Position numbers and translations under genes: made by a program | Notes under the pieces: generated by a model | The model's input: only the letters and a program-made list of their open reading frames with translations | Database searches by the model: none | What the model was told of the DNA's origin: nothing | Shown here: positions 11,023 through 48,553 of the stretch, piece by piece | Layout of the letters: every line of letters starts with the position of its first letter | How positions within the stretch are numbered: position 1 is the stretch's first letter | Source of the DNA: Rhodobiaceae bacterium | GTDB lineage: Bacteria; Pseudomonadota; Alphaproteobacteria; Rhizobiales; JAKPQE01 | Assembly: GCA_028278505.1 (NCBI GenBank) | Contig: JANQEG010000079.1 | Location: forward strand, 22,078 to 86,077 | Reading direction: 5' to 3' | DNA length: 64,000 nucleotides

Positions 11023-11745
11023 ATGGATTTGCGTTCACAGAATGCATCGGGTCGGCGGAAAACTAAGCAGCGCAAGGTTGCAAATGGCGTTGCAACAAAT
11101 AATCTAATTTATAGTGCATATGCCGAGCGTAATGATAGCATTTTCCCGCGTATCCTCGATTTATATGTTAAAAAGGATAGTATTGTTGCAGATGTTACAT
11201 TTGGAAAAGGGGTATTCTGGCGAAAAATACCAGATGGTTATTATAATGTTCTTGCAACTGACATTGCTGAGGGAATCGATGCTCGGGATCTCCCTTATGG
11301 CGATAGTGAAATAGATTGTGTAGTCTTTGACCCGCCGTATATGCATACGCCGGGCGGCAGTGCCCATTCGGTACATCATCCTTTTGAGTCCTACTACAGA
11401 AATAATGTAACCGGAAACCGAACCGGGAACAAATATCACGAAGCGGTTGTTGAGCTGTATATTGATTCGGCCGCCGAAGCTTACAGAGTTCTTAGATTTG
11501 GTGGCGTTTATATCGTGAAATGCCAGGATGAAGTCTGCTCAAATCGGCAACGTTTAACACATGTCGAGATCATCAATTCTTGTGAAAAAATTGGTTTCAA
11601 TACAGAAGATTTATTTGTGGTGATGCGAAACAACAAGCCAGGCGTTAGCAGGGTTGTCCGACAGGTCCATGCCAGAAAAAACCATTCTTACTTCATTGTT
11701 TTCTGGAAACCGAGATCGAAATCTCAAATCTGGAAAAAAACATGA
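11023..11745 (+). CDS. Putative DNA methyltransferase (DPPY class)
   Basis: Motif I-like IVADVTFGKGVFW followed by CVVFDPPYMH (motif IV) and AYRVLRFGGVYIVKCQDE; markedly AT-richer than flanking nuo genes. Confidence 0.8.
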   Translation: MDLRSQNASGRRKTKQRKVANGVATNNLIYSAYAERNDSIFPRILDLYVKKDSIVADVTFGKGVFWRKIPDGYYNVLATDIAEGIDARDLPYGDSEIDCVVFDPPYMHTPGGSAHSVHHPFESYYRNNVTGNRTGNKYHEAVVELYIDSAAEAYRVLRFGGVYIVKCQDEVCSNRQRLTHVEIINSCEKIGFNTEDLFVVMRNNKPGVSRVVRQVHARKNHSYFIVFWKPRSKSQIWKKT

Positions 11746-12257
11746 GTAATAGAGATCCGGTTCAGATCATGCTTGAAGTGATTAGGGAAAATTCGCCATC
11801 GTCGAAATGGATCGGGGCACCGTTGGAACCGTTTAGAAATGTTGCCAATACAAATCGAGGAGATATTGGCGAAGAATTTGTCGCTCGATATGTTCGCGTA
11901 AATGGGATAGATGTAATCAAAGCTCCGTCCAGAAATTGCGAATGGGATATTGAAATTTTTGGGAATAAACTCGAAGTAAAGACTGCCTCGGAAGACAAAG
12001 GCGGAGCATTTCAATTCAATCACATACGCCTGGATAGAAAATATAGTTTTCTTCTATGTCTCGGCGTGCAGCCGGCATCGTTGATATTTGGCCTTTGGTC
12101 AAAAGGGCAAGTCGCGGAGGGTGAGGCTGGAACATTGGTACGAATGGCTGAGGGACAAAGTATCACTTTTAAATTGACCAAACGGCTGGAAGACTTGGAG
12201 CCGATACAGAACCTGAATAGGACTCTCAAAGAGAAGCTTGGGCAGGTGCCAAAGTGA
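11742..12257 (+). CDS. Putative restriction endonuclease-like protein (PD-(D/E)XK)
   Basis: NRGDIGEEFVARYV...CEWDIEIFGNKLEVKTASEDKGGAFQFNHIRLDRKYSFLLCLGVQP: D..ExK nuclease-like core; ATGA overlap with the methyltransferase stop. Confidence 0.65.
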   Translation: MSNRDPVQIMLEVIRENSPSSKWIGAPLEPFRNVANTNRGDIGEEFVARYVRVNGIDVIKAPSRNCEWDIEIFGNKLEVKTASEDKGGAFQFNHIRLDRKYSFLLCLGVQPASLIFGLWSKGQVAEGEAGTLVRMAEGQSITFKLTKRLEDLEPIQNLNRTLKEKLGQVPK

Positions 12258-12273
12258 TGTCAAGGATATCTCG

Positions 12274-12525
12274 ATGAGCGACGAACCGGAAAATGTGATC
12301 CTGAAACTGCTGCGGGAAATCCGGGCGAACCAGCAAGAACAGGGCGTTACCCTTCGTGAGCATGTCGAGTGGTTAAAGAGTATCGATAAGCGCATGGATG
12401 AGGTGCACGAAACCTTGTATGCCGCCTCCGGTATCGCGATGCACGCCAATGTCCGCCACGACACGGTGAGCGAGGAAATTGCGGAATTGCGGCGGCGCAT
12501 CGAGCGGCTGGAAGAGAAGGTCTGA
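12274..12525 (+). CDS. Small predicted coiled-coil protein
   Basis: ATG at 12274; MSDEPENVILKLLREIRANQQEQGVTLREHVEWLKSIDKRMDEV...EEIAELRRRIERLEEKV, heptad-like. Confidence 0.55.
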   Translation: MSDEPENVILKLLREIRANQQEQGVTLREHVEWLKSIDKRMDEVHETLYAASGIAMHANVRHDTVSEEIAELRRRIERLEEKV

Positions 12526-31137: not shown

Positions 31138-31782
31138 TCAAATCGGCCGGCCGACCCAGCGCACGCGTCCAGCGATCCGCAACTTGGAAAGATCGGTTTT
31201 CGAAAGCCGCTCGTGGGGATATCGATCGTTGTCCGAGATGAGTTCGACCGAACCATCGGCGCGGCGGTTGATTCGCTTGACCAGAAGATCGCCATCGAGA
31301 GCGATGACGTATATGCCTCCGGAATGCGCCGTCCGTTTTGACAGGTCGACCAGCATCAATGCGCCGTCGGGAATGGTCGGTTCCATCGAGTCGCCATCGG
31401 CGGTGACGATGCCGGCCTTGTCCGGCGCCACGCCGAGCTCCCTCAACTCGTCGCGCCGGAATGGCAGCCGCTCAGCAACGTCCTCCGAAACCGGAACAAG
31501 TCCTGACCCCGCCGAGGCGCGAATTTCATACCGTGGAACGAAGACCATACCATCTGACGACGCCAACTCTGGCGTGTCCCCAAACAGTATATAGTCGGCC
31601 GAAAGGCCGCACGCTTGGGCGATCTGAGCGATAGCAGACGCCTTAGCTTCTGCTGTGCCGCTGATGTAGTGCGACAGCGTTCGCGTCGGTATACCTGTAA
31701 TTTCCGACACATGCTTTGTGCCGCCAGCTTTCTTGACAGCTGCGCTTATCCTCGAAGCAACCTCGGAAATATCAGCGGGCAT
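31138..31782 (-). CDS. Phage repressor, HTH plus S24/LexA-like peptidase domain
   Basis: HTH KHVSEITGIPTRTLSHYISGTAEAKASAIAQIAQACGLSADYI; S24 [20 protein letters not shown]...GIYVIALDGDLLVKRI; start MPADISEV at 31782 (ORF open to 31812). Confidence 0.9.
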   Translation of the reverse strand: MPADISEVASRISAAVKKAGGTKHVSEITGIPTRTLSHYISGTAEAKASAIAQIAQACGLSADYILFGDTPELASSDGMVFVPRYEIRASAGSGLVPVSEDVAERLPFRRDELRELGVAPDKAGIVTADGDSMEPTIPDGALMLVDLSKRTAHSGGIYVIALDGDLLVKRINRRADGSVELISDNDRYPHERLSKTDLSKLRIAGRVRWVGRPI

Positions 31783-31793
31783 AGATAAGCTCC

Positions 31794-31834
31794 GCCAGTA
31801 CTGGCTTGACAAAGAGCCAGAACTGGCTTCTATT
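31794..31834 (+). promoter_or_regulatory. Early promoter overlapped by paired operators
   Basis: TTGACA at 31806-31811, 17-bp spacer, TCTATT at 31829-31834; palindromes GCCAGTACTGGC (31794-31805) and GCCAGAACTGGC (31816-31827) 22 bp apart. Confidence 0.6.
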
Positions 31835-33776: not shown

Positions 33777-34234
33777 TGGTCAAGGCGCGCGGCGACAACC
33801 AGACAATGGACCTGCTCCAATGGAAGCCGCCGCAAGTCTGCATCGATCGGGGCGCCGAAGCAGCGGGAAAAGGCACGCTCGACAACAAGATAGCCCGGAT
33901 CATATCGGCCGCGCTCCGGGCCTCAAAGCGAGACCGTTCGGACGTCGCCTACGACATGACCGAGTTTCTCGGGCGCCGCGTTTCGATGGAAATGCTCGAA
34001 AAATGGGCCAGTCAGGCGGCAACAGGCCATCGCATCCCGCTCGATGCCTTCATCGCCTTGATCGATGTTACCGGCTCTCACCAACTCGTCGGATTTGTTG
34101 CCGATCAGTTCGATCTCGCGGTCATCCCTCAACAATACGCCGATGTCATCGAACTCCACCTGATCGAGGAACACGAACGCGAGGTCGCCGACCGGAAGGC
34201 CGCGCTCCAGGCGAAGTGGAGGCGTTGCCGATGA
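33776..34234 (+). CDS. Phage regulatory or accessory protein upstream of transposase
   Basis: 152 aa, coupled to neighbours; DNKIARIISAALRASKRDRSDVAYDMTEFLGRRVSMEMLEKWASQA. Confidence 0.6.
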   Translation: MVKARGDNQTMDLLQWKPPQVCIDRGAEAAGKGTLDNKIARIISAALRASKRDRSDVAYDMTEFLGRRVSMEMLEKWASQAATGHRIPLDAFIALIDVTGSHQLVGFVADQFDLAVIPQQYADVIELHLIEEHEREVADRKAALQAKWRRCR

Positions 34235-36408
34235 AGCTCTGGCTGACCGCGCAGGAGATTGCCGACGCAAAACTGCCCGGATTGCCGGCGGTAAAGCGGC
34301 CGCTCAACGCCCTTATTGATCGCGAGAGGTGGCGGGATAGCAGTCTGGCGCGGTGCCAGAAGCGTCGCGGCGGACCAATCTGGACCTACCACATCGACCT
34401 GCTGCCATTGCCGGCACGGCTCGCCTACGCGCGACGCCACCTGTTGCTAGACCAGGCCGACTTTGAGTTCGAGACGCCGGCCGAGGATGATGGGGCTGCG
34501 CTTACTGCGCGCCTGCAGGGCGATGCACGGCTGGCGGTGCTTCGCATTTGTGACCGGTTTAGGGCGAAATCCGATCTTTCGGTGACCGCCGGCGACCATT
34601 TGTTTTCAGAACTTTTCAATAGCGCTTCGATCGACCTTCCAGACTGGGTTCGAACGGCCGTCAAACGGATCAGCCCACGCACACTTGCCAATTGGCGGTC
34701 GCGGGTGAAATCCGGCGATGCGGACAAGCTAGCAGTCGATCGGGCGGCGGCGCGAAAAGGCTCCGGCGTGCTCGACCGCGCCCATGGCGGCGAGGTGAAG
34801 ACGCTGATCCTGGCGGCGATCGCCAAGAACCAGTTTCTTTTCGCCCATCACGTCCGGGCCTTGGTGCGCGACCGGTATGGCGATGAACTGGAGATGGTCT
34901 GTTCTCACACCGGCGAAATCACCTCGGTCAAACTGCCGCCCTTGCGCACCTTCCAGGATGCGATCCGGCGCTGGAAGGTCGAGCACAAGACCGAGCTCCT
35001 GAAGCTCACTGACCCGGATGGGTTCAAGTCGAAGGCGCGGTACGTCGCGACCGGCTCGACCAAGGCCGACAGGCTCAATGAGGTTTGGGAAATTGATGCC
35101 TCACCCGCCGATGTAATGCTCGTCGACGGTCGTTATTCCTTCTATTCCTGCACGGACATCTTCTCACGACGCAAGATCGCGCTCGCCTCAAAGACGCCGC
35201 GCGCCGATGCGGTCGCGCTTTTGCTGCGCAAGGCGCTGATCGCCTGGGGTGTCCCGGAAATCATCCGCACCGACCGCGGATCGGATTTCACCGCGCACTC
35301 GACAGGCCGGCTCATGGCCGCGCTCGGGATCGAAGCGGATATCTGCCCGGCCAATTCTCCCGAGCGAAAAGGTGTCGTCGAGCGCGCCATCCGCACGTTT
35401 CAGCACAGCCTGTGCCGCACGCTTCCCGGCTTCATCGGCCACTCGGTCGCCGACCGCAAAGTGATCGAGGGCCGCAAGGCGTTCTCGCAGCGCCTCGGCC
35501 TCGACGACGCGGACCTGTTCAATGTCGAACTGACCCTGCCGGAGTTCGAGGACTACGCCGACCGGTGGTGCGAGGCGGTCTATGCCCACAATAAACATGG
35601 CGGGCTTCGCGGCGTGACGCCGTTCGAAAAGGCCGCGTCCTACACGGGCAAGGTCCGGCGGATCGAAAACGAGGACGCGCTTAACCTGCTGCTGGCGCCG
35701 ATCGCCGGCAAGGACGGCTATCGTCAGATGACGAAGAGCGGTGTCCGGGTCGACGGTTATCACTACCTGCCTCACTGCCCGGTCCTTCCGGGCACGCGCG
35801 TTTTCTGTCGGCACGATCCTGCTGATCTCGGACGGCTGCACGTCTTTGCCGACGACGGCGAGAGCTTCATCGGCCATGCGATTTGCGCCGAACTCGCCGG
35901 CCTTGATCCGGCGGAAGTGGTGGCAAAGGCCCGTGCCATGCAAAAGGCGCTGATCGACGAAACGGTCAAACCGTTGCGCCGCGTGGCCCGCAGCATCGGC
36001 ACCCGCGATGTCGTTGAAGCGATATTGCGCGGGGCGGAAAAGGATCACGCCGACCTTCTCGCCTTCCCGCGTCCCATTGAAGCGCACGAAACCCCGGCGA
36101 TCCGCGCCGCGGCCGCGGCCGTTTCCGACACCGAGCCCGCGCCGACGCCGATGGATGCGCGCGCGGCGGAGCTTCACGCCGAAATCCGCCGCGACCTGGA
36201 GGGCACGCCAGCGACAACACCGGCGAATGTCCAGGCGCTGCCCGAAACCCGCGAGCAGCGGTTCCGCCGCGCGCTTGATCTGGAGCGCCGGATCGCCGCC
36301 GGCGACCTGGTCGATCCGAAAAAGGCCTTGTGGCTCGGCGGCTACCAGGCCGGGCCGGAGTACCGAGCCTTGAAGTTGATGCGTGAGGGAGCCGAGGCAC
36401 TCGGCTGA
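34231..36408 (+). CDS. Mu-type transposase A (DDE integrase core)
   Basis: N-terminal Mu DNA-binding-like WLTAQEIADAKLPGLPAVKRPLNALIDRERW; DDE core WEIDASPADVMLVDGRYSFYSCTDIFSRRK...RTDRGSDFTA...NSPERKGVVERAIRTFQHSL. Confidence 0.93.
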   Translation: MKLWLTAQEIADAKLPGLPAVKRPLNALIDRERWRDSSLARCQKRRGGPIWTYHIDLLPLPARLAYARRHLLLDQADFEFETPAEDDGAALTARLQGDARLAVLRICDRFRAKSDLSVTAGDHLFSELFNSASIDLPDWVRTAVKRISPRTLANWRSRVKSGDADKLAVDRAAARKGSGVLDRAHGGEVKTLILAAIAKNQFLFAHHVRALVRDRYGDELEMVCSHTGEITSVKLPPLRTFQDAIRRWKVEHKTELLKLTDPDGFKSKARYVATGSTKADRLNEVWEIDASPADVMLVDGRYSFYSCTDIFSRRKIALASKTPRADAVALLLRKALIAWGVPEIIRTDRGSDFTAHSTGRLMAALGIEADICPANSPERKGVVERAIRTFQHSLCRTLPGFIGHSVADRKVIEGRKAFSQRLGLDDADLFNVELTLPEFEDYADRWCEAVYAHNKHGGLRGVTPFEKAASYTGKVRRIENEDALNLLLAPIAGKDGYRQMTKSGVRVDGYHYLPHCPVLPGTRVFCRHDPADLGRLHVFADDGESFIGHAICAELAGLDPAEVVAKARAMQKALIDETVKPLRRVARSIGTRDVVEAILRGAEKDHADLLAFPRPIEAHETPAIRAAAAAVSDTEPAPTPMDARAAELHAEIRRDLEGTPATTPANVQALPETREQRFRRALDLERRIAAGDLVDPKKALWLGGYQAGPEYRALKLMREGAEALG

Positions 36409-36482
36409 ACGTGAAAAGGGCGCCGCTGCAACGGCGCCCCAAGACCGGCGCTTGGCGCAGGTCATCGCTTAGAGGAACGACC

Positions 36483-37238
36483 ATGACGAATACAGAACAG
36501 CACGTCAAGCGATCGTCGATCGCTGCCCTTACGAACGTGACGGAACTCATGGTGCTCGCCGAGACGCTCCGCGGTCGCGATCCCATGTTGCCCGGTATCG
36601 GCGTGTTCTCTGGACCGTCCGGCTACGGCAAGACCTACGCCGCGGTCTACCTGCAGAACAAGACGCGGGCGCTCCGCGTCGAGGTTGCGAAGAGCTGGAC
36701 GGGGCGCATCTTTATGCAAAATGTGCTTCGCGAAGCGGGCATCGCCAAGCCGCGCGGCTCGATCGGCGACATGGTCGAGGAAGCGGTCATGATCCTCGGC
36801 GACGATCCGACGAGGCCGCTGATCATCGACGAGGCCGATTGGCTCGTCGAGAAGCGCCTCATCGAATATGCCCGCGAGCTACACGACCGCTCCGCAGTGC
36901 CGCTGATCCTGATCGGCGAGGAACACCTGCCACTCAAGCTTTTGGATAGCGACCTCGAACGCGTCCATAACCGCGTTCTGGATTGGAAATATGCCAGTCC
37001 CTGCGGCGGCGGCGACGCCCGCGCGCTCGCCGAGATCATCTGCCCCAACCTCGATATTGCCGATGATCTGATCGCAGAGATCGTCCGCAAGGCAAGAGGC
37101 GTCACGCGCCGCGTCGTCGTCAATCTGGCGCGGATCAGCGAGTCGGCGCGCAACACCGGCGCACTTTCCCTCGACCTCGCCTCCTATCCGGAGAGTTTCT
37201 TCACCGGCGACCCTCCCACCCGCGGGAGGGCGGCGTGA
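36483..37238 (+). CDS. MuB-like AAA ATPase (transposition target selection)
   Basis: GVFSGPSGYGKTYAAVYLQNKTRALRVEV, PLIIDEADWLV; directly after MuA. Confidence 0.9.
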   Translation: MTNTEQHVKRSSIAALTNVTELMVLAETLRGRDPMLPGIGVFSGPSGYGKTYAAVYLQNKTRALRVEVAKSWTGRIFMQNVLREAGIAKPRGSIGDMVEEAVMILGDDPTRPLIIDEADWLVEKRLIEYARELHDRSAVPLILIGEEHLPLKLLDSDLERVHNRVLDWKYASPCGGGDARALAEIICPNLDIADDLIAEIVRKARGVTRRVVVNLARISESARNTGALSLDLASYPESFFTGDPPTRGRAA

Positions 37239-42835: not shown

Positions 42836-43333
42836 CTACCGGGCGGTGACCAGAACGGTCGACATAATCGGCGGCGAGACTGTCACGCTGTATCTCAAAT
42901 CAGCGCTGTTGACGGTTTTTTCGCCCTCTTTGCCAAGACTTCCGATGATTTCGCCGACAATCCCATTGCGCGCCTCGACAGAAAGCTCGGGCTCAAAGAC
43001 CGCGATCGTCATTGCGGTCGCCATCAACAGATGCACCGGCTCGGTATCGTTGCCGACGATAATCCAGACCTGGCTTGCATCCTCTTTCGGGCCTTCGGCC
43101 CCGGCGAGCATGGAGACGTTTCCGTTAACAAGATATCTGCACGATGTCATGGCCTCCGTGACGCAGTTCCGTCGCGTCATTCGAAAGGCATCGCGCGATA
43201 TGTCGAGGGCTCTCGCAGTCTTTTCATAAGCGCGAACAAGCCCATCAACGGCCACGCCGTTCAGCAGCGCTTTTTCTGCCGCCGAAGCCGAGCTTGCCAT
43301 TATCAGAATAAGGCAGGTCACCAACAAGCGCAT
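42836..43333 (-). CDS. Predicted secreted protein (moron candidate)
   Basis: Signal peptide MRLLVTCLILIMASSASA then about 145 aa; opposite strand to surrounding phage genes. Confidence 0.65.
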   Translation of the reverse strand: MRLLVTCLILIMASSASAAEKALLNGVAVDGLVRAYEKTARALDISRDAFRMTRRNCVTEAMTSCRYLVNGNVSMLAGAEGPKEDASQVWIIVGNDTEPVHLLMATAMTIAVFEPELSVEARNGIVGEIIGSLGKEGEKTVNSADLRYSVTVSPPIMSTVLVTAR

Positions 43334-43428
43334 TGGCCGGACTCCGTCAGGGTTGCGATGATTCGATCTTATCGCGATTACCGTGCACGTCACCCCTTTT
43401 TGACATTTCTTCTTCGGGGCATTGCGCC

Positions 43429-43833
43429 ATGACAGCGGCCAAAAAGCTCCGCGAGGCGGCGGACAATCTCCGCGCCATCGTCGGTGACGAAGCCGCGCTC
43501 ACCCTAATGGAACTCTACGGCGGCACGCGCCTTTACGTGCCGAAGAACGCCACGCCGGCTTCAAAGCTCTATCGAGAGATCGGGGAACCGGCGCTTGCGG
43601 CTTTGTGCGAGGAATACTCCTCTTGCCAGATCACTGTGCCGCTCGGGCGCGAGTGGCGAGCCTCGGTCTATCATGCGCTCGGCGCCTCGAATGCGGAGAT
43701 CGCACGCGCGCTCGGTTGCAGCATAGATGGTGTCCGCTTTATGTTGATTCGCGCCGGCGCCAACACCGGCAAGGCGACAAAACCACCTCGCCCCAATCCA
43801 CAGCTTGATCTCTTTCGTCGGGGACGTGCCTGA
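43429..43833 (+). CDS. Mor-like transcriptional activator
   Basis: ALTLMELYGGTRLYVPKNA...REIGEPALAALCEEYS...GASNAEIARALGCSIDGVRFMLIR; sits before the lysis module as in Mu. Confidence 0.8.
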   Translation: MTAAKKLREAADNLRAIVGDEAALTLMELYGGTRLYVPKNATPASKLYREIGEPALAALCEEYSSCQITVPLGREWRASVYHALGASNAEIARALGCSIDGVRFMLIRAGANTGKATKPPRPNPQLDLFRRGRA

Positions 43834-43912
43834 ACTCACGGGCATGTCGATCGATTGGCGTGTGCGGCAAAGTCTCCTCGAACTCAGATTGAATTTGTTT
43901 CGAGGACTCTCG

Positions 43913-44911
43913 ATGACCTTCGAAAAGCCGCGCCGGCGAGTGAAGCGTGTCTACATTCACTGCTCCGCTTCCGATCACGCCCATCACGACGATGTGTCGG
44001 TAATGGACCAATGGCACTGCAAGCGCGGCTGGTCGGAGGTCGGCTACCACTTCTTTATCAAGAAGGACGGTGAGCTTCAGCGCGGCCGGCCGATCGAAAA
44101 GACGCCGGCCGCGCAGGCGAACTACAATTCGGGAACAATCGCGATCTGCCTGCATGGCCTCGAAAAGCCAAAGTTCACCGACGCCCAGTTCGAAACGCTT
44201 CGCGAGTTGTGCGCCGAAATAGATGAAGCCTATGACGGCAAGGTCACCTTTCACGGCCACTGTGAAGTCGCCGCAAAATCCTGCCCGGTTTTCGACTACC
44301 GCGAGGTGCTCGATCTCGATGCCAAGGGCCGGCTCGGCGCCGGTTCGCAGAATTCGGTTTCCGCCGTCACCGCGCCGGACCCGGACATCATGCTTCGCGT
44401 CGGCGCCGACGGCTGGCGGGTGAAGGCGCTGCAAAAGCAGCTGACGGCGCTGGGCTATCACGTCGGCCAGGTCGACGGCGATTACGGGAGGCGCACCCGC
44501 GCCGCCGTGCTGGCGTTTCAGGCCGACAACGATCTTGATACCGACGGCATTGCCGGGCCGAAAACGCTGGCGGCGCTCGACGCCGCGCAGAAGCGTGAAG
44601 TGGGCGAGGAGCGCCAAGCGGCCGGGCTGCTTTCTCTGGCGGATGAAGGTTCGCGGATCGCCGATGCGTCGGTCAAACAGGCCAGCGCCGGCGGCATGGT
44701 CGCGGCCGGTGGCGCGCTCGGTGTCGTATCGCTTGTCGGAGAGACCATGAGCAGCGTTCGCGAGGCGGTTTCGCCGTTCTCCGGCCTGCTCGCCGAATTC
44801 GGCCCGCTCTTGGCAATCGCCGCGCTTGCGATCGGCGGCTTCATCGTCTGGCAGGCGGTCCGCGCCGGCCGCGCCCGCGTCGAGGATCACCGGACGGGCA
44901 AAACATCATGA
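43913..44911 (+). CDS. N-acetylmuramoyl-L-alanine amidase endolysin with PG-binding domain and C-terminal TM
   Basis: VKRVYIHCSASDHAHHDDV...GWSEVGYHFFIKKDGELQRGRP; PG_binding_1 VKALQKQLTALGYHVGQVDGDYGRRTRAAVLAFQADNDLDTDGIAGPKTLAAL; hydrophobic FGPLLAIAALAIGGFIVW. ORF is open from 43805. Confidence 0.88.
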   Translation: MTFEKPRRRVKRVYIHCSASDHAHHDDVSVMDQWHCKRGWSEVGYHFFIKKDGELQRGRPIEKTPAAQANYNSGTIAICLHGLEKPKFTDAQFETLRELCAEIDEAYDGKVTFHGHCEVAAKSCPVFDYREVLDLDAKGRLGAGSQNSVSAVTAPDPDIMLRVGADGWRVKALQKQLTALGYHVGQVDGDYGRRTRAAVLAFQADNDLDTDGIAGPKTLAALDAAQKREVGEERQAAGLLSLADEGSRIADASVKQASAGGMVAAGGALGVVSLVGETMSSVREAVSPFSGLLAEFGPLLAIAALAIGGFIVWQAVRAGRARVEDHRTGKTS

Positions 44912-45243
44912 TCGGATTCGGCGCGCTCCTCCAGGTCATCGGTCGACCGCTGGCGATCCTTGCGGTTGTCATCGGGCTTTACGGCGCCGGCCGATACATG
45001 GGCGCGACCAAGGCCAGCGCTGCCTGTGAGGCCAATCGGCTGCGCGCCGAAATCTCGGAACTGAAGCGGCGCTCGGCGCTCGCGGATCGACAGGTCGAAG
45101 CCGCACGCAAGCTCGCCGATGCGCGGGCGGAAGAGATTTCAATCCTGGACGAAAGGGTGGCCGCTTATGAGCGGGAGATTAAGGACCGGCCTGGTTGCGT
45201 TCTCGATGGCGCTGATGCTGACCGGTTGCGTAACATCCGGTAG
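44908..45243 (+). CDS. Rz-like i-spanin
   Basis: N-terminal TM GRPLAILAVVIGLYGAGRYMG then coiled-coil; overlapped in another frame by the Rz1-like gene. Confidence 0.65.
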   Translation: MIGFGALLQVIGRPLAILAVVIGLYGAGRYMGATKASAACEANRLRAEISELKRRSALADRQVEAARKLADARAEEISILDERVAAYEREIKDRPGCVLDGADADRLRNIR

Positions 45244-45442
45244 CACCGGGTCCGGCCTGCCGCCGCTGCCCGCCGAGTTGGCGCGCCGCTGCGCCGATCC
45301 CGGTGTCCGCGCCGGCCATGACGCCCGATCGGAGCTCGCCCGGAATCGGCGCGCGCTCGCCGTCTGCAAGAAGCGTCATGCCGACACGGTCACCTTTTAT
45401 GAGGGGATCAGGGACGCGTTTGGAAAGGGAAGGACGCAATGA
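45167..45442 (+). CDS. Rz1-like o-spanin lipoprotein
   Basis: MSGRLRTGLVAFSMALMLTGCVTSGSTGSGLPPLP lipobox LTGC; overlaps Rz out of frame. Confidence 0.7.
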   Translation: MSGRLRTGLVAFSMALMLTGCVTSGSTGSGLPPLPAELARRCADPGVRAGHDARSELARNRRALAVCKKRHADTVTFYEGIRDAFGKGRTQ

Positions 45443-45696
45443 CCGAAACCGCCGAATCCACTTCGGACGAACGCACCGCCAACAACGCGGTGCGCCATGC
45501 CTATCGGAAGCTGACCGAGGAGGAGAAGTCGCAGGTCGAGGCGATCAAGGTGCTCGGCGCCGGCTTCATTTCCGCGTTGCATGAGATCGGCGGCACCGAT
45601 CCTGGCGGCGATAAACAGGCTTCGCGCGATCTCGCCCTGGCGCAGACTCATGCCGAGGACGCGGTCATGCGCGCGGTGCGCCACATCACCAAGTAG
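45439..45696 (+). CDS. Acb2/Tad1-family-like protein (putative cyclic oligonucleotide sponge)
   Basis: NNAVRHAYRKLTEEEKSQVEAIKVLGAGFISALHEIG...SRDLALAQTHAEDAVMRAVRHITK: short helical hairpin with the SRE.SLA.T..EEAVMWAV.HI signature. Confidence 0.75.
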   Translation: MTETAESTSDERTANNAVRHAYRKLTEEEKSQVEAIKVLGAGFISALHEIGGTDPGGDKQASRDLALAQTHAEDAVMRAVRHITK

Positions 45697-45713: not shown

Positions 45714-46043
45714 GTGACGCCCGACGATCTCAGGGCCTGGCTCTCGGTCATCGCGACGCTGATCGCGATCGGAACGGCGGTCTATGCTTGGTTATCTGCG
45801 CGTTCGAAAGGCAATGAAAAGCAGCTAGCGGAGCTACAAAAGGAGATGGGCAAGTTGAGCCGCCGCGTCGATCATGTCGAGACCGAACTGACCCACCTGC
45901 CCGACAAAGACGCCGTGCACGATCTTCAGCTCGCGGTCACGCGGGTAGAGGGCACAATTTCGACAATGGCCGAGGCATTCAAGGCGATCGAGCGAACGAC
46001 GCGGCGGGTCGAGGACTACCTCATCAAGAAAGGTGGCGATTGA
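45714..46043 (+). CDS. DUF2730-like phage protein
   Basis: N-terminal TM then coiled coil; LRAWLSVIATLIAIGTAVYAWLSARSKGNEKQLAELQKEM; GTG start. Confidence 0.7.
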   Translation: MTPDDLRAWLSVIATLIAIGTAVYAWLSARSKGNEKQLAELQKEMGKLSRRVDHVETELTHLPDKDAVHDLQLAVTRVEGTISTMAEAFKAIERTTRRVEDYLIKKGGD

Positions 46044-46343: not shown

Positions 46344-46934
46344 ATGGCGGCCCGCCGCCGCGGCCGCGGCCGCCTCTCCGCGATCGATCTGCTGCCATCC
46401 GAGTGCGACGTCATCGTAGCCTGGGCAGCGCAGGAACTATCGGCAATGGATCGGAACCAAACCGATATCTTTGCCGAATTCCGAGAGCGCCTGCTGGCCC
46501 TGCAAGGTGAGACGGGCGTCGCTTTCGATATCCCATCCTTCTCGGCCTTCAATCGGTATTCGACCCGGCTATCCACAATGTCCCGTCGCCTGGAGGAGGC
46601 GCGGCAGATAGCAGCTTCGTTGTCGGAGCGGCTGGATGCCGGGGCGTCCGACGATCTGACCGTCATTGCGGGCGAAGCAATCAAAACACTGGTGTTCGAG
46701 CTCCTGCAGTCGAAAGGCGAAGCCGGCATATCGACCAAGGGCGCGCAAGAGCTTGCCAATGCGCTCCGGGCGGTTGCGGCCGCCCAGAAGGTGTCGACGA
46801 CACGGCGCAAAGAGATCGAAGAGGAATTCGCCGGTCGCGTTGAAGAGGCGGTCGATAAAGTCGCAGACGAGGCAGGTCTTTCCGCGGACCAGGTCGCCCA
46901 GATCCGCAAGGATGTACTCGGGGTGCGGTCATGA
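46344..46934 (+). CDS. DUF3486 family protein (Mu gp27-like, small terminase candidate)
   Basis: RGRGRLSAIDLLPSECDVIVAWAAQELSAMDRNQTDIFAEFRERLLAL. Confidence 0.85.
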   Translation: MAARRRGRGRLSAIDLLPSECDVIVAWAAQELSAMDRNQTDIFAEFRERLLALQGETGVAFDIPSFSAFNRYSTRLSTMSRRLEEARQIAASLSERLDAGASDDLTVIAGEAIKTLVFELLQSKGEAGISTKGAQELANALRAVAAAQKVSTTRRKEIEEEFAGRVEEAVDKVADEAGLSADQVAQIRKDVLGVRS

Positions 46935-48553
46935 GCGACAACGAAGCGCCCCTCCCGATCGAGCCGGTTATTCCGCGCAATCCCCATGAGCTGCCGGAGG
47001 AGATGACGCGCGGCGCTGAAATCCCAGCCGATCTCGATCCGCTAGCCGATGGCATATTGATGGCGCACCAGGTCGCATGGCTAGAGGACAAGAGCGATCT
47101 GAAGCTGGCCGAAAAAGGCCGGCGCACGGGGATCACATTTGCCGAGGCGCTTGATGCCACACTGACCGCCGCCTCGGCGCGTTCAGCCGGCGGCGATAAC
47201 GTCTTTTACATCGGTGACACCAAGGACAAGGGCCGAGAGTTCATCGGTTACGTGGCGCATTTCGCGAAGGTCGTCGCCGGTCAGTTCGCCGAGGTCGAGG
47301 AATTCCTATTCGAGGACCGACGGAAAGACGGCTCGACCAATTACATTTCCGCTTTCAGGGTCCGGTTTTCCAGCGGGTTTCGTGTCGAGGCGCTGTCGTC
47401 GCGGCCTGAGAACATTCGCGGCCTGCAGGGCGTCGTTGTCATCGACGAAGCCGCGTTCCATAAGGATGTTCGCGGCGTTCTCGATGCCGTCAACGCGCTC
47501 CTGATCTGGGGCGGCAAAATACGGGTCATCTCGACCCATAACGGTGTCCTAAGTCCCTTCAACGAGCTGATCCGGGAAGCGCGCGCCGGAAAGGTCCCGT
47601 TCTCGATTCACCGCATTCCGTTCGCCGATGCCGTGAACAACGGCCTTTACGAGCGGGTGGCCCTCGTTCGCGGCAGGAAATGGGCGGAAGAGAATCCCAA
47701 GGAGGAATGGCTCGCCCGCATTCGCGGGTCCTATGGCGCCCGCACGGCAGCGATGAAGCAGGAACTCGACTGTATCCCAGCCGAGGCCGAGGGCGCGGCA
47801 CTGACGCGGGTGCAGATCGAGGCTTGTATGGGGCCGGTGCCCATCGTGCGATGGGCCTGCGAAGACGAGTTCAAAAACGCACCCGAACACATCCGCAAGG
47901 CCGACACACTTGATTTCTGTCGCGAGCAACTGGGCGAGCACCTCGCCAAACTCAATCCCGCCCGGCCGCATGTGTTCGGCGAAGACTTCGCTAGGAAGGG
48001 CGATCGGACATCGATCACGGTGTTCGAAATCGGAACCGACCTCGTCCGGCGCACGGTGCTGCTTGTCGAGCTGTACAACGTGCCCTTCGATCAGCAGCGC
48101 GACATCCTTTACCACGTTGTCGACCGCCTCCCGCGCCTATCCGGCGGCGCGCTGGACGCCACCGGCAATGGTGCGTATCTGGCCGAGAAGGCCGCACAGA
48201 AATACGGCGAAATCATCATCGAAGTGCATCTGACGCAGAGCTGGTACCGCGCGGAGATGCCCGCCTATATCGAGGCGTTCAGCGACAGGACGGTTCTGAT
48301 CGCGCGCGACGACGATGTTCTGCGCGACCATCAGGCGCTGCAATATGTCGGCGGCATCATCAAGGTTCCCGATGATCATAGAGCCAAAGGCGCGGACGGC
48401 CTCAACCGGCACGGAGATAGCGCGACCTCGGGCGCCCTCGGTTACTTCGCCAGCCGCCAGGACCTTCACGAATACGGCTACACCCCGGCCTCCGAACTCG
48501 ATCATGACCAAAGTCCCCTTGCCGACGAATCCGGAGGGCGCGCGCTATGGTGA
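46931..48553 (+). CDS. Phage terminase large subunit (Mu gp28-like)
   Basis: MAHQVAWLEDKSDLKLAEKGRRTGITFAEALDA; VVVIDEAAFHKDV; FGEDFARKGDRTSITVFE. Confidence 0.92.
   Translation: MSDNEAPLPIEPVIPRNPHELPEEMTRGAEIPADLDPLADGILMAHQVAWLEDKSDLKLAEKGRRTGITFAEALDATLTAASARSAGGDNVFYIGDTKDKGREFIGYVAHFAKVVAGQFAEVEEFLFEDRRKDGSTNYISAFRVRFSSGFRVEALSSRPENIRGLQGVVVIDEAAFHKDVRGVLDAVNALLIWGGKIRVISTHNGVLSPFNELIREARAGKVPFSIHRIPFADAVNNGLYERVALVRGRKWAEENPKEEWLARIRGSYGARTAAMKQELDCIPAEAEGAALTRVQIEACMGPVPIVRWACEDEFKNAPEHIRKADTLDFCREQLGEHLAKLNPARPHVFGEDFARKGDRTSITVFEIGTDLVRRTVLLVELYNVPFDQQRDILYHVVDRLPRLSGGALDATGNGAYLAEKAAQKYGEIIIEVHLTQSWYRAEMPAYIEAFSDRTVLIARDDDVLRDHQALQYVGGIIKVPDDHRAKGADGLNRHGDSATSGALGYFASRQDLHEYGYTPASELDHDQSPLADESGGRALW

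Follow-up and report, generated by a model that had tools for sequence, protein, structure and literature searches.

A probable cyclic-oligonucleotide sponge of the Acb2 family, encoded in the late operon of an alphaproteobacterial Mu-like prophage

The window analysed here, the whole stretch of 64,000 nucleotides, contains a gene that very probably encodes an Acb2-family cyclic-oligonucleotide sponge; a Mu-like prophage carries it, as a moron, within its late operon. Such a sponge would soak up the cyclic nucleotide alarm signals by which bacteria trigger suicide against viruses. The gene is located as follows:

45439..45696, plus strand: Acb2-type sponge gene, 85 aa, ATG start, TAG stop

Its product is MTETAESTSDERTANNAVRHAYRKLTEEEKSQVEAIKVLGAGFISALHEIGGTDPGGDKQASRDLALAQTHAEDAVMRAVRHITK, and both the open reading frame (ORF) and the 85-aa protein are present exactly as an earlier sequence-only reading of this DNA had described them. 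The ORF is a real gene, as indicated by its relatives (28 from viral contigs, 80 from contigs of bacterial genomes), by dN compared with dS, and by a strong match to a curated Pfam model. Against its nearest relatives, dN was 0.22-0.38 and dS 0.7-1.3 (dN/dS ~0.17-0.45), and the gene is under purifying selection. Family membership, the hairpin prediction, the conservation of contact and hexamer residues, and the late-gene position were computed directly.

The sponge protein was confidently assigned by its sequence to the Acb2 family, a known family of which it is clearly a new member. In the HMM check that the sequence-only reading had proposed, the full model of PF24729 (Acb2/Tad1 hairpin) matched residues 21-85 with 61.7 bits (E 7.8e-17), above the curated cut-off of 27 bits. 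PHROG 717, which groups T4 Vs.4 with its homologues (PMC10097602), matched with an E-value of 4.2e-5. A PDB profile search with 21 relatives gave the PaP2/PaMx33 Acb2 chains (8h2j/8ixz) as the best match (E 0.004), followed among the relevant chains by T4 Vs.4 (E 0.15) and Tad1 (E ~0.36). When the relatives' profile was aligned by hhalign with PaMx33 Acb2, T4-type Vs.4, and three phage homologues, the E-value was 4.7e-11, and it was 1.8e-14 when short Pseudomonas-phage forms replaced Vs.4. HMMs of these two alignments, which contained no sequences other than Acb2 homologues, some of them characterised, scored the sponge protein at 17.8 and 31.3 bits; chance is excluded, since the best of ~5000 shuffles reached 9.9 bits. 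Single-sequence phmmer against the PDB returned chance matches only (spidroin, TetR), NCBIfam had no matching model, and a BFVD search placed several "Acb2/Tad1 hairpin" proteins near the top with no significant E-value.

The sequence-only reading had named Acb2 and Tad1 together, with anti-Thoeris activity and gcADPR among the possibilities. The Acb2 part stands on Pfam, PHROG 717, hhalign, the PDB profile search, and the fold search, while Tad1 membership was rejected because the 85-aa protein has no β domain. Tad1 (PDB 7UAV, 8KBE, 8SMD) has the C-terminal two-helix hairpin (PF24729) in common with the sponge protein, but its N-terminal β-sheet domain is absent from the latter, in which only 21 residues precede the hairpin and no strand is predicted. 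Because the gcADPR pocket of Tad1 is made of loops of this β-sheet domain together with the helices (PMC12043709), gcADPR binding and anti-Thoeris activity are not supported. A Tad1-like sponge sequestering gcADPR might still be argued from the span of PF24729 over both families, the weak Tad1 matches in the PDB profile search, and the occurrence of ThsB TIR in 12 of 61 genomes (own plus relatives, mostly at order level), as against SMODS above cut-off in four of the same 61; given the missing domain and the higher scores of Acb2 structures than of Tad1 in both sequence and fold searches, we consider it highly improbable.

The two-helix hairpin claimed in the sequence-only reading was borne out by AlphaFold2 (62 relatives), which predicted two long antiparallel helices without an extra domain, at pLDDT 90-98:

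45517..45591, plus strand: helix 1 of the hairpin (residues 27-51), AlphaFold2 prediction, containing K37
45625..45690, plus strand: helix 2 of the hairpin (residues 63-84), containing R63, A68/T70/A75/A79, and the variant set D64/H71/D74/R78/R81

Residues 1-15 were largely disordered in the monomer model, and the N-terminal motif described below was predicted to be disordered. A fold search of this monomer against 350,542 PDB chains gave T4 Vs.4 or Acb2 chains as all of the seven best matches (probability 0.63-0.95, E 0.19-0.54), with the next match at E 2.6; the E-values are weak because the hairpin fold is short, while the ranking is clear. A first model, from 21 sequences, had given weak fold matches, and Acb2/Vs.4 took ranks 1-7 with the second, from 62 sequences.

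Vs.4 of T4 contacts cGAMP through Y8, H11, K23, R79, and F82 and requires L29, A66, A73, and A77 for its hexamer (PMC10097602), and the T68M substitution reduces its ligand binding (PMC12657230). In the alignment of this Acb2 protein (PDB 7UQ2) with the sponge protein (~20% identity), Y8, K23, and R79 are identical to Y22, K37, and R81, whereas H11 and F82 are changed to L25 and T84, and W76 to R78. The hexamer alanines A66, A73, and A77 are identical to A68, A75, and A79, L29 is conservatively replaced by F43, and T68 is identical to T70, so that three of five ligand contacts and three of four interface residues are retained, plus T70. PaMx33 Acb2, a validated sponge, also has no equivalents of H11 and F82 (L14 and A88 instead). 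K37 corresponds to K23 of Vs.4 and K26 of PaMx33 Acb2, and it is found in all 106 homologues, with Y22 in 102 and R63 in 105. We take R63 to be the counterpart of R67 in the trinucleotide pocket of PaMx33 Acb2.

The Acb2 proteins of PaMx33 and PaP2 (gp24/p26; PDB 8H2J, 8H2X, 8IXZ) have the same hairpin-only architecture and resemble the sponge protein in the start of helix 1 (GYRDLS / YRKLT), the Tyr and Lys of the cyclic-dinucleotide pocket, the Arg opening helix 2, and the Arg of the C-terminal helix. They differ from it (~24% identity) in having a shorter loop, D/T/A in helix 2 where the sponge protein has H/D/R, and a C-terminal PDSF tail, which the sponge protein lacks, while the latter has an added N-terminal RTxNNxxRH motif. 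Short Acb2-like proteins of the Pseudomonas phages MKPT02, MR5, and HHBS14_1 (35-38% identity) carry a near-identical helix-2 set, RDLALARTHxEDACxRxVR; unlike the sponge protein, they have the canonical Acb2 N-terminus (MDNQHRKIQxYR), a C-terminal RPxxPW tail, and no RTxNN motif. The Acb2-like ORF of MKPT02 (L035:4001-4231) is unannotated on its own strand, with the deposited gene calls on the opposite strand, and the MR5 protein (gp57, L126:2971-3201) and its relatives carry the name "NAD/FAD-utilizing enzyme apparently involved in cell division", which is likely a misannotation of an Acb2-like hairpin protein.

The genes around the sponge gene form a Mu-like prophage, with the following features in window coordinates:

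31138-31812, minus strand: CI-like repressor
33820-36408: Mu A-like transposase (PHROG 310, E 2.5e-93)
36411-37238: transposition protein B-like
43333..43833, plus strand: Mor/C-like activator of late transcription, ahead of the lysis-packaging operon (PHROG 836, E 3.7e-19)
43805..44911, plus strand: endolysin (Amidase_2 and PG_binding_1, Pfam)
44908..45243, plus strand: Rz-like inner-membrane spanin, overlapping Rz1 (PHROG 1026, E 2.8e-5)
45119..45442, plus strand: Rz1-like spanin lipoprotein of the outer membrane, with a lipobox (LTGC) and its likely start at 45167 (PHROG 456, Rz-like spanin, E 4.6e-4; Pfam LysC E 1.2e-3, below cut-off)
45714..46043, plus strand: DUF2730 gene, next after the sponge gene (PF10805, E 7e-11)
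46344..46934, plus strand: Mu gp27-like small terminase (PF11985, E 1.3e-36; PHROG 426)
46931..48553, plus strand: large terminase (PHROG 2, E 8.8e-36)

The large terminase is followed by a portal, a gp30-like minor head protein, a head protease, and a major head protein, and the sponge gene is thus phage-borne, in a prophage with transposase, repressor, late activator, terminase, portal, and head genes. Because the lysis genes, the sponge gene, and the terminase lie in one plus-strand run from the late activator onward, the sponge gene most likely belongs to the late genes. The stop codon of the Rz1-like gene and the ATG of the sponge gene overlap (ATGA at 45439-45442), and a purine-rich, AAGG-type ribosome site lies upstream, so that translational coupling to the spanin gene, as the sequence-only reading had claimed, is plausible.

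Two other regions of the window deserve mention. A 185-aa ORF with a signal-peptide-like start (42836-43393, minus strand) lies antisense within the prophage, just ahead of the late activator; it has no Pfam match and is a possible lysogenic-conversion gene. At 11114-12525, an AT-richer insert with ORFs of 171 and 95 aa, neither with a significant Pfam match, separates nuoF-like and nuoG-like genes and is possibly a small island inside the nuo operon.

Close homologues of the sponge protein (64-75% identity) are found in phages and prophages of Paracoccus, Gemmobacter, Salipiger, Thalassovita, and others, and shorter W-type forms (Trp at position 78) in Rhizobiales, Sphingomonadales, and Caulobacterales. 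Its close homologues lie in unrelated phages, which is the pattern of a moron, here one that favours late modules. Many homologues adjoin terminase, portal, or head genes, which would suit a small accessory protein, structural or for assembly, that belongs to the head-packaging module and resembles Acb2 in its hairpin fold only. However, the placement varies: behind the spanins here, between large terminase and portal in two Mu-like relatives (L017, L018), after lysin and Rz again in HHBS14_1 and MR5, and elsewhere after the portal, before terminase, protease, or head genes, or near regulatory or early-type genes. Moreover, when 14 prophage proteins of the window were searched in the viral-contig loci, most loci had the sponge alone in common, and packing alone does not require the 96-100% conservation of Y22 and K37. 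A packaging accessory is therefore, in our judgement, very unlikely.

Acb2-hairpin genes in unrelated phages repeatedly adjoin lysis (lysin, Rz) or packaging and head (terminase, portal) genes (L125:2522-3664, L126:308-3201, L124:1-670, L017/L018, L069/L079/L091/L093); counter-defence genes are usually expected to be early. A homologue of the alphaproteobacterial-phage type (48% identity) was also found in HQ332136 (L034:15001-15231), which is labelled "Dunaliella viridis virus SI2", an algal virus, and is probably a bacteriophage.

The protein is probably functional as a cyclic-oligonucleotide sponge, and an Acb2-type ligand range, cyclic di- and trinucleotides, is expected. We infer that it would be made with the lysis and packaging proteins during lytic growth and that the 85-aa hairpins would form a compact hexamer. 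Cyclic dinucleotides would be held in pockets between head-to-head protomers (Y22, K37, R81), and cyclic trinucleotides probably at the trimer interfaces, on the R63 side. The bound signals would be kept from CBASS-type effectors, and the host would not abort the infection.

The host MAG (150 contigs, 85% complete) has one copy of the sponge gene and no detectable CD-NTase SMODS, ThsB TIR, TIR_2, or type III Cas10; a search for the DncV-like family was uninformative, as the controls gave no match either. Since no CBASS, Thoeris, or Cas10 was detected, the sponge is probably of use in other hosts, or else the system that it targets was missed in, or is missing from, the MAG. We counted this result against the sponge reading, together with the two Vs.4 contacts that are not conserved, the monomeric state of the model, and the weak fold E-values, but it weighs less because the MAG is incomplete and the phage may infect other hosts. 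The same result would suit a cyclic-nucleotide binder in regulatory use, e.g., one that senses a host signal to time lysis and has no part in counter-defence, as would the position in the lysis cassette, the start-stop coupling to Rz1, and the lysis-adjacent homologues in HHBS14_1 and MR5. The protein, however, has no DNA-, RNA-, or protein-binding domain, its homologues occur in many gene contexts, and its characterised relatives are stoichiometric sponges. We regard regulatory use as very unlikely and retain the reading as an Acb2-family sponge.

The sequence-only reading had pointed to an Arg in place of the Trp of AVMWAV and to an insertion in the loop:

45592..45621, plus strand: insertion GTDPGGDKQA in the loop between the helices (residues 52-61), which about half of the family lacks

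The Arg is present (AVMRAV), but since PaMx33 Acb2 has Ala at this position, Trp is no validated consensus from which the Arg would depart; the insertion is also present, but as a clade trait and not a peculiarity of this protein. Both are common to the whole clade. The K37-R63 spacing is 25 residues in 41 of the 106 homologues and 16 residues in 50, and the longer spacing occurs in 36 R-type (Arg78) and five W-type proteins, so that insertion and substitution are separable. Arg78, found in 39 of 106, is always accompanied by Asp74 and Arg81 (Asp64 in 35, His71 in 37), whereas Trp78 (66 of 106) occurs mostly with Glu64 (65), Lys71 (56), Glu74 (61), and Lys81 (63). The distant MKPT02 homologue, with its canonical Acb2 N-terminus, also has D/H/D/R/R at these five positions, and the residue set may therefore be old or recurrent. 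On the tree of the 106 homologues, which has too few columns to resolve the origins of the R type, at least five changes are needed, and one origin is also compatible.

A second trait characterises the whole branch:

45457..45507, plus strand: N-terminal motif S7-x-S-D10-x-R12-T-x-N15-N16-x-x-R19-H20-x-Y22-R23, ending at the putative ligand-contacting Tyr

The motif (SxSDxRTxNNxxRHxYR) is conserved as strongly as the hairpin, with S7, D10, R12, N15, N16, R19, H20, and Y22 at 86-96% among the 106 homologues, and is absent from T4 and PaMx33 Acb2. The whole alphaproteobacterial-phage branch is without the short C-terminal tail of Acb2. Because two protomers contribute N- and C-terminal segments to the cGAMP pocket of Acb2 (PMC10419184), the motif may take the place of the missing tail in the pocket. 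It is conceivable, though we think it rather unlikely, that the branch is a separately evolved sponge class, in which the N-terminal motif replaces the C-terminal tail and which includes the D64/H71/D74/R78/R81 type with the loop insertion, and that its remodelled pockets select a cyclic nucleotide not bound by T4 or PaMx33 Acb2. If this were true, the ligand might, for instance, avoid triggering guard systems such as Panoptes.

Our analysis adds a confidently assigned Acb2 homologue, from an alphaproteobacterial Mu-like prophage. Its close relatives are common among the phages of Rhodobacterales, Hyphomicrobiales, and sphingomonads, and are mobile there; no characterised Acb2 from these phages was found in the literature searched. 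The protein is ordinary in kind, and the branch that it represents is uncharacterised, widespread in alphaproteobacterial phages, and set apart by its N-terminus and by helix-2 residues that co-vary. Pocket specificity matters because sponges aid phages against CBASS yet trigger Panoptes (PMC12657218, PMC12657230), and the N-terminal motif and the tightly co-varying helix-2 set make the branch a natural experiment on what determines ligand specificity in sponge pockets.
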